Assembly (NCBI GenBank): GCA_949297305.1
Contig: CASFSG010000064.1
Coordinates: 1-45,025 of the forward strand
From: an uncultured bacterium
Lineage (GTDB): Bacteria; Bacillota_I; Bacilli_A; RFN20; CAG-826
Length of the DNA stretch: 45,025 bases
Reading direction: 5' to 3'
Position 1 is the stretch's first letter. Each line of letters opens with the position of its first letter. Of this stretch, positions 14,393 to 16,315 are shown one piece after another. Below the pieces are notes generated by a model that did no database searches, had not been told where the DNA came from, and saw only the letters and a program-made list of their open reading frames with translations. The position numbers were made by a program, and so were the translations under genes.

Positions 14393-14704
14393 TTATTTAA
14401 CATCGATGCTTTCGATAGCTAAACAAGTGTAAGGTTGACGATGACCATAAGTGCGGCGATAGTTATTTTTCGCTTTATACTTGTAAATGCGAATTTTTTT
14501 AGCTAAGCCTTGTTTGACAATTTTCGCTTTAACTAAAGCGCCTTTTACATAAGGATTTCCAACACTTAATTTATCGCCACTAACAAGAAGAACTTTATCT
14601 AAAGTAACTTCTTGATCAACTTCGCCATTTAAGCGTTCAACATAAATTTGTTGACCAACTTCAACACGAACTTGTTTACCACCGGTTTCTAAAATAGCGT
14701 ACAT
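14393..14704 (-). CDS. rplU: 50S ribosomal protein bL21
   Basis: A 103-residue L21, starting [11 protein letters not shown] and ending with the [15 protein letters not shown] region typical of the family. I use ATG 14704, which has GAGAGG six bases upstream. The longer frame from 14749 would run through the leader RNA. It is the first gene of the rplU-prp-rpmA operon, controlled by a structured leader. Confidence 0.97.
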
Positions 14705-14812
14705 ATATAACCTCTCTTTCTTCACCTGATGACTCGCTATGAAGGCCAATTAATGAAGCATTAATTAGTTAATAACCTTTTCTAGGCGGTTGTAGATGTG
14801 AGGCCTACAACG
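14705..14812 (-). ncRNA. Ribosomal protein L21-type leader (cis-regulatory RNA)
   Basis: The roughly 108-base leader before rplU folds into hairpins: GTTGTAG / CTACAAC (14789-14795 with 14805-14811), ATTAAT / ATTAAT (about 14748-14765), and CTTCA / TGAAG (14720-14744) just upstream of the ribosome binding site. Position and structure fit the L21 leader family of Bacillota, which is thought to mediate autogenous control. I recognise it by context and layout, not by a covariance-model match. Confidence 0.65.
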
Positions 14813-14879: not shown

Positions 14880-15560
14880 TTATTGGTGATTGTTAAACTT
14901 ATTATTTTCCAAAAAAGAATAATAAGATAGCGGCGAAATAATGATATGGTCGACCATTTTTAACTGGAATTTTCTCGCTTCGTTTTTGATTGATGTGGTG
15001 AATAATAAATCATCTTCGCTAGGAAGGGCATCATCGAGATGATTATGAATAATGATGAATCGCTTTTCTTCCGCTAGAAGCACTTCTTTGATAATCTTAT
15101 GAGGGCTAATTAAAACGGCGTCTTGAGTACCGACTGCTAATATCTTTTCTTTAGTTATGATGTTTCGTTTATTTAAAATTAATAAAATTAAAGTTTCATG
15201 TTTTTCGCTATTTAAATATTGATAATGTTTAGCAATATCTAAGGAATTATAGTACTTGGGGCAATTTTCTTCTTTTAAAATGCGTTTTGCCAATTCGAAG
15301 GCAACAACTAATTTTAATGTCGTAGCACGCGATAGCCCTTTAAACTTTGTCAATTCTTGATAATCTATTGATGATAGATTTTTTAAGGAAAAATACTCCT
15401 TTAATAGTTCGATAGCGATATCGATAGCGGAATTACCTTTAATCCCACTACCGATTAAAATCGCTAATAATTCATATTCGTTTAATGAGTGAACGCCATG
15501 ATAAATCGCTTTTTCTCGCGGGCGATAAATGAATGGAATATCCTTAATTTTTATTCCCAA
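14880..15560 (-). CDS. radC: RadC/JAB-domain protein
   Basis: A 226-residue member of the RadC (JAMM-like) family, of unclear biochemical role and common in Bacillota. The N-terminal helix-hairpin-helix region has YELLAILIGSG and KFKGLSRATTLKL. The C-terminal metal-binding motif reads HNHLDDALPSEDD, slightly shorter than the usual HNHPSG form. The homologous region begins at KIKDIPF, so I take TTG 15560 as the start. The frame can be extended upstream to 15650, but that sequence is antiphase to a better small gene. The TTG overlaps the last 10 bases of that small gene, implying coupled translation. Confidence 0.85.
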   Translation of the reverse strand: MGIKIKDIPFIYRPREKAIYHGVHSLNEYELLAILIGSGIKGNSAIDIAIELLKEYFSLKNLSSIDYQELTKFKGLSRATTLKLVVAFELAKRILKEENCPKYYNSLDIAKHYQYLNSEKHETLILLILNKRNIITKEKILAVGTQDAVLISPHKIIKEVLLAEEKRFIIIHNHLDDALPSEDDLLFTTSIKNEARKFQLKMVDHIIISPLSYYSFLENNKFNNHQ

Positions 15561-15730
15561 GTAAATTTCCAACCACCCGGAATTGTCGTCGAACCTTCTT
15601 TTGATAAAAAGAGGCGATAAACGATAACAGCAACGACGGCAATCGCACAAATTGCCATAATCGCCGTTAAAGTAATTCCTTCACCAAATTTTATTTCTCT
15701 TTTATCTAATTCGCTTAACTCGTGTTTCAT
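15551..15730 (-). CDS. 59-residue single-pass membrane peptide of unknown function
   Basis: ATG 15730 is preceded by an ideal AAGGAGGT ribosome binding site at 6-base spacing, and the frame ends at TAA 15551. The peptide has a charged N-terminus (residues 1-18, with LSELDKREIKFGEG), a hydrophobic span at about 19-41 (ITLTAIMAI, then AVVAVIVYRLF), and a short tail KEGSTTIPGGWKFTWE. The N-terminus loosely recalls double-glycine leaders of class II bacteriocin-like peptides, but it ends GEG rather than GG. No processing transporter is nearby. It could also be a small membrane regulator. It lies between the greA terminator and radC and overlaps radC by 10 bases. Confidence 0.8.
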   Translation of the reverse strand: MKHELSELDKREIKFGEGITLTAIMAICAIAVVAVIVYRLFLSKEGSTTIPGGWKFTWE

Positions 15731-15781: not shown

Positions 15782-15810
15782 AAAAAATAAAAAAGGAGGC
15801 AGTCCTCCTT
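15782..15810 (-). terminator. Rho-independent terminator after greA
   Basis: On the minus strand AAGGAGG, a 4-base loop, CCTCCTT, then TTTTATTTTTT. It is the strongest terminator in the window and insulates greA from the peptide-radC unit. Confidence 0.9.
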
Positions 15811-15835: not shown

Positions 15836-16315
15836 TTAGTCAGGTTGAACTATATCTAAAATTTCTAAATTAAATGGTGAACCTGATTTAACGGTGACAA
15901 CATCGCCAACCCTTTTGCCAAAAAGTGCTTCACCAACAGGTGAAATGTTCGATATTTGTGTTGGCAAGGCAAAAGGATCAGCTTCAACTGAGCCGACAAT
16001 TTTATATGTAAATGTTTTACCATTTTTTAAATTTTTAACAGTGACGGATGAACCAAAACCTACCGATTTAGATATTTTTGAAGCATATTTAACAATTGTT
16101 GCATTTCGCAAAATTTGCTCAATTTCATAAATGCGCGTTTCGACTTCGCCTTGTTTTTCTTTCGATGCTTTATAATCAGCGTTTTCGCTTAAATCTCCTT
16201 GCGAACGGGCTAAAGCGATTGCGCTAGCGACTTCCGGGCGAACGACATTGACTAAATTATTATATTCCGATTCTAATTTTTCTTTACCAGCTTTCGTTAA
16301 GACCATTTTTTCCAT
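15836..16315 (-). CDS. greA: Transcription elongation factor GreA
   Basis: A 159-residue factor that enters the RNA polymerase secondary channel and stimulates cleavage of backtracked RNA. The N-terminal coiled coil carries the acidic tip motif GDLSENADY (D and E ligands), and the C-terminal FKBP-like domain contains the GEALFGKRVGD stretch. Length is normal. It has its own promoter upstream and a terminator downstream. The first ATG (16315) is used; AAAGAGGT lies 12 bases upstream, a longish spacing. Confidence 0.97.
   Translation of the reverse strand: MEKMVLTKAGKEKLESEYNNLVNVVRPEVASAIALARSQGDLSENADYKASKEKQGEVETRIYEIEQILRNATIVKYASKISKSVGFGSSVTVKNLKNGKTFTYKIVGSVEADPFALPTQISNISPVGEALFGKRVGDVVTVKSGSPFNLEILDIVQPD

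Follow-up and report, generated by a model that had tools for sequence, protein, structure and literature searches.

We analyzed a 45,025-nucleotide stretch of DNA from an uncultured bacterium of the GTDB order RFN20 (contig CASFSG010000064.1 of assembly GCA_949297305.1; here called the window), and describe a small gene on its minus strand at 15551 to 15730, stop codon included, which starts with ATG and encodes a peptide precursor of 59 codons (MKHELSELDKREIKFGEGITLTAIMAICAIAVVAVIVYRLFLSKEGSTTIPGGWKFTWE). The gene lies in the order greA-peptide-radC-rplU-ysxB-rpmA and is preceded, 6 nucleotides before its ATG, by the Shine-Dalgarno sequence AAGGAGGT (15744 to 15737, minus strand); most homologs likewise follow strong Shine-Dalgarno sequences. 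An earlier note on this DNA had proposed an overlooked membrane-peptide gene with an ideal ribosome binding site, and both parts of the proposal hold. The tblastn comparison that it suggested recovers homologs in 91 of 95 relatives of the order and in 71 of 71 good-quality genomes, with one short open reading frame (ORF) per genome in nearly all, and the conserved tail is visible in their alignment. Against a sister species of the same genus, we observe nonsynonymous (dN) and synonymous (dS) divergences of 0.03 and 0.79 (dN/dS, ~0.04) and 3, 1, and 19 differences at the three codon positions. Because the differences concentrate at third positions and dN is far below dS, the peptide is under purifying selection, and the ORF is a real gene, far above chance. 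No Pfam or NCBIfam model covers the peptide, the single-sequence search giving only noise, and a fold search of the PDB with its model found no match. A second, weak match in its own genome lies in an 821-residue frame whose product is SecA-like by sequence, and was set aside as chance similarity.

In a profile search of 395 genomes drawn from the class, all 55 members of the order were positive, as were families outside it. Within the order, the peptide occupies a slot between greA, or a gene that we take from its sequence to be valS, and radC; neighbors include valS, greA, radC, rplU, mreC, and similar genes, and class-level relatives show the same slot followed by radC, mreC, mreD, and minD. 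Two loci (L056 and L057) hold the peptide gene with no radC recognized alongside. In one genome of family f20 (G328, L131:4479-5068) the gene is present in three tandem copies, and another genome of that genus (G233) also has several. The literature that we covered on double-glycine peptides of Mycoplasma, Mollicutes, Spiroplasma, and Erysipelotrichia does not describe the family; most subscription journals lay outside this coverage, and an earlier description is possible.

The overlap with radC (14880 to 15560, minus strand) bears on the annotation of both genes. Most likely radC starts at the TTG at 15560, within the last codons of the peptide gene, which gives about 226 amino acids, the usual length in relatives, where radC starts at or near the peptide's stop. 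The N-terminal extension of radC, suspected earlier of being a mis-start, is an artefact, because the extended frame of relatives has stops across the peptide region and Pfam UPF0758_N does not begin until residue 35 of the long radC ORF. Since peptide and radC overlap here and adjoin each other widely, the small gene could be a translated upstream ORF that couples or regulates radC translation. We regard this as very improbable, given the strong selection at the amino acid level, the loci without a recognized radC, and mycoplasma-like genomes that place the peptide beside lspA-ileS or rplU instead of radC. A role tied to radC was disfavored on the same ground, the peptide being retained in L056 and L057. 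Elsewhere at the locus, a terminator-like hairpin with a T run (15793 to 15810, minus strand) separates the peptide gene from greA (15836 to 16315, minus strand), and the rplU ORF (14393 to 14749, minus strand) is listed from an upstream TTG, an internal ATG probably being its natural start.

The precursor comprises three parts, all on the minus strand: residues 1 to 16 (15683 to 15730), which align with the leaders of relatives that carry a canonical double-glycine (GG) motif, LxxxExxxIxGG; residues 17 to 43 (15602 to 15682), the start of the mature peptide and a membrane helix, as judged from hydrophobicity and modeling; and residues 44 to 59 (15554 to 15601), a conserved tail, KEGSTTIPGGWKFTWE, modeled as a beta hairpin. 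AlphaFold2 predicts a helix over residues 7 to 42 and strands at 46 to 50 and 54 to 58, with a mean predicted local distance difference test score (pLDDT) of 80. Among 45 family members, the leader has L at -12 in 41, E at -8 in 36, I, V, or L at -4 in 38, G at -2 in 35, and G at -1 in 41, and position -7 is M or L in 24. The window copy, with L5 at -12, D9 at -8, I13 at -4, F15 at -2, and G16 at -1, fits at -12, -4, and -1 and carries Lys at -7. Thus, the double-glycine-like head that had been noticed in the window is true of the family, whose members carry textbook leaders, but is not confidently recognizable from the window alone, since the Phe at -2 hides the motif in this genus. A C39 peptidase is predicted to cut after G16. 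The tail motif KGxxxxPGGxxFxW is conserved across the family, with S43, G46, P51, and W58 each retained in 41 to 43 of the 45. In addition, the flank on the tail side of the helix carries more positive charge than that on the N-terminal side in 41 of 45 members, which by the positive-inside rule suggests a topology with the N terminus out and the C terminus in.

A Peptidase_C39 protein, usually in one copy, was found in 85 of the 95 relatives. The window's own genome has a single match, a 390-amino-acid protein encoded beside ybeY (G000, contig C25), so that the peptide gene has, in its own genome, the peptidase expected for a double-glycine leader. Across most of the order these proteins have about 390 residues and join a C39 domain to a membrane domain of six long helices of the type found in peptidase-containing ATP-binding cassette (ABC) transporters (PCATs); in some families the ORFs are shorter, at ~130 to 250 amino acids. 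The gene adjoins or lies near ybeY in the cdd-era-recO cluster at most loci examined. All 17 aligned sequences contain the Pfam Peptidase_C39 domain, with C13 and H88 invariant and D103 present in at least 90%. The AlphaFold2 model (pLDDT, 89.5) has as its best Foldseek matches in the PDB only PCAT1 structures, over both domains (TM-score over the query [TMq], 0.61 to 0.63). Neither a Walker A motif nor ABC_tran was found in the 17 proteins or in the window genome's own; the catalytic C39 and ABC-type transmembrane domains of a PCAT are therefore present and its ATP-binding domain is missing. The search for a peptidase-containing transporter that the earlier note had recommended thus leads to a C39 peptidase elsewhere in the genome, one without an ATPase.

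A neighboring family (f25) suggests a link between the leader and this enzyme. Here, the C39 protein is reduced in several genomes to a bare domain of ~111 to 127 amino acids. Of the 13 leader-bearing genomes, 12 have a bare C39 gene, each before ybeY, and among the leaderless genomes, whose peptide has 39 to 42 amino acids, the gene was found in none of the 16 inspected at the sequence level; these counts omit G494, G496, G461, G506, and G460, whose matches were ambiguous or uninspected. In two leaderless genomes phoH is followed directly by ybeY, and no C39 remnant was seen in the phoH-ybeY gap of the leaderless genome in which it was sought. In one leaderless lineage (L179), the peptide gene stands beside ftsZ. 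Fisher tests of the association between leader and C39 give P values of 2.5e-7 by genome and 2e-4 by genus. However, a RadC tree shows three changes of leader state, and well-supported branches force only one change for the leaderless group; the correlation represents one to three evolutionary events, which the Fisher values overstate, and the idea of many independent events was dropped. In family f20 the class draw contains 16 peptide-bearing and 16 C39-bearing genomes, and the two sets are identical; with no genomes lacking both for comparison, this identity is supportive only. Because the mature part survives in lineages without leader or protease, we infer that selection acts to keep the mature membrane peptide itself.

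We consider it likely that the gene specifies a housekeeping membrane peptide, not a bacteriocin, and that a C39 peptidase dedicated to its leader carries out its maturation. It would encode, in precursor form, a small single-pass membrane protein that is generally conserved and whose 16-residue double-glycine-type leader is removed after G16 by the ybeY-adjacent C39 cysteine peptidase. This enzyme, a putative PCAT descendant, has no ATPase and would therefore cut leaders in the order without exporting peptides. The mature product, about 43 residues long, would stay in the membrane, probably with its N terminus out and its tail in, and the tail hairpin may contact a partner. Its role would be a housekeeping one in the membrane or envelope; the neighbors mreC, mreD, minD, and, in one lineage, ftsZ are only a hint of a function in the envelope or in division. 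Of the earlier suggestion of a small membrane regulator, the small membrane peptide stands, and a regulatory role is possible.

Several observations weigh against this reading. The window's leader is degenerate at -2 and -7, the peptide and C39 genes are unlinked, and on the well-supported branches the correlation in f25 may come down to a single event. One leader-bearing f25 genome (G522, 89% complete) gave no C39 match, and five drafts that are 79 to 95% complete (G007, G029, G030, G017, and G093) have the peptide with no C39 detected. The lack of linkage, the degenerate leader of the window's genus, and these few genomes would fit a model in which the ybeY-adjacent C39 protein serves other substrates, and another protease cuts the leader or the leader stays on. 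We think this quite unlikely, as leader and C39 are jointly absent in f25, the two 16-genome sets of f20 are identical, and the window's own genome has just one C39 match.

A secreted peptide, either a class II bacteriocin or a pheromone with a leader that directs export and a mature part that acts outside the cell, would account for the presence of a GG leader. In addition, 13 of the 45 members weakly match the cerein 7B class IIb model TIGR03949 (best E value, 3.4e-5), and complete PCATs, ATPase included, occur in families f20, f17, f22, and part of f11. Evidence from the order and from f25 speaks otherwise: the C39 protein of the order is without an ATPase, f25 has a bare C39 domain, and leaderless forms occur without any C39. 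The peptide is a conserved, single-copy core gene whose tail is kept at least as well as its leader, and no immunity, regulator, or exporter genes, the companions by which a class II bacteriocin is recognized, were found among its neighbors. Bacteriocin family models do not match the window peptide, and only a minority of other members match them weakly. Because the ATPase and companion genes are missing, roles in export or as a bacteriocin or pheromone fit the order poorly, and the bacteriocin or signaling function first suggested for this gene now appears unlikely.

Comparable pairs of peptide and C39 protein are found in the mycoplasma-like families f22 and f11, where C39 proteins of ~600 to 690 amino acids precede ybeY and most have an ATPase. 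Two f11 transporter-like proteins (L307:8786-10624 and L309:6908-8698) have no detectable Walker A or ABC_tran, a loss that is apparently independent. When TGA is translated as Trp, a short peptide is seen in most f22 genomes, with a tail resembling KGEIKTKDGxSxKW and, usually, a GG leader ahead of it; 17 of 20 genomes match at an E value of <1e-3, and the f22 profile aligns over its full length with the window family (E value, 2.5e-13 for a single comparison). In f11, GG peptides lie upstream of rplU (G097, G363, and G440) or after greA-rsmI or greA (G445 and G215), a slot that matches that of the window; in g58 the peptide is established in G097 only, the stretches from four further g58 genomes having missed the locus. 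The f11 profile matches that of f22 (E value, 1.7e-8), but its orthology with the window family is tentative because the match to the window family spans the leader only.

In f11 the genes run C39-ybeY-era-recO-glyS. The minimal cell JCVI-syn3A has a C39 transporter, gene 0401, whose substrate is an acknowledged puzzle; finding no double-glycine peptide to pair with it, the authors of the minimal-cell model tentatively gave it to lipoate import (PMC6609329). Gene 0405, which is glyS and encodes glycyl-tRNA synthetase, comes four locus tags after 0401, a spacing consistent with the f11 order. The resemblance is to C39 transporters of f11 and f22 that precede ybeY-era-recO-glyS in genomes holding GG peptides, although orthology with this slot is read from locus-tag spacing alone. 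A broader scheme, which we put forward tentatively and which could well prove wrong, is an ancient core system for membrane-peptide maturation shared by the gut order, Erysipelotrichales-like families, and mycoplasmas. In it, the PCAT would have been stripped stepwise from full transporter to ATPase-less C39 with its membrane domain, to bare C39, to none with a leaderless peptide, and the peptide would be the missing substrate of the orphan mycoplasma C39 transporter, including that of the minimal cell.

Known PCAT systems such as PCAT1/CtA and ComA/ComC share with this one the leader motif, a C39 domain with catalytic Cys, His, and Asp, and a PCAT1-like membrane domain. Here, however, the order has no ATPase, C39 is unlinked from the peptide, a single-copy core gene, and in f25 it is cut down to a bare domain or lost together with the leader. 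Class IIb bacteriocins (lactobin A/cerein 7B, TIGR03949; Bacteriocin_IIc, PF10439) similarly place a short hydrophobic peptide behind a GG leader, but the present family is kept across an order rather than being strain variable, and has no immunity and export cluster. Other peptide-export loci were seen alongside: in f17 (L186:3552-6335, L188, and L140), a conserved full PCAT with an HlyD-like protein of ~140 amino acids and two different GG peptides beside rpsU, and at L192:978-1358 (G303), a full PCAT immediately preceded by a short ORF that is rich in Cys and Gly and has a GG-like motif, a peptide-export cluster that seems unrelated to the present family. Small membrane proteins of the YohP kind are not known to depend on a C39-type leader for their insertion. 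YohP-like bacterial proteins (PMC7549839) otherwise resemble the peptide in having a single helix and a similar size and in being easily overlooked by annotation.

The gene described here is a core gene, so far without annotation, of a large clade of gut bacteria that are mostly uncultured. The finding points toward the use of double-glycine leaders and C39 peptidases for apparent housekeeping maturation of a membrane protein, rather than for the export of toxins or signals. Finally, the GG peptides whose genes precede rplU or adjoin lspA-ileS emerge as candidate substrates of the mycoplasma C39 transporter.
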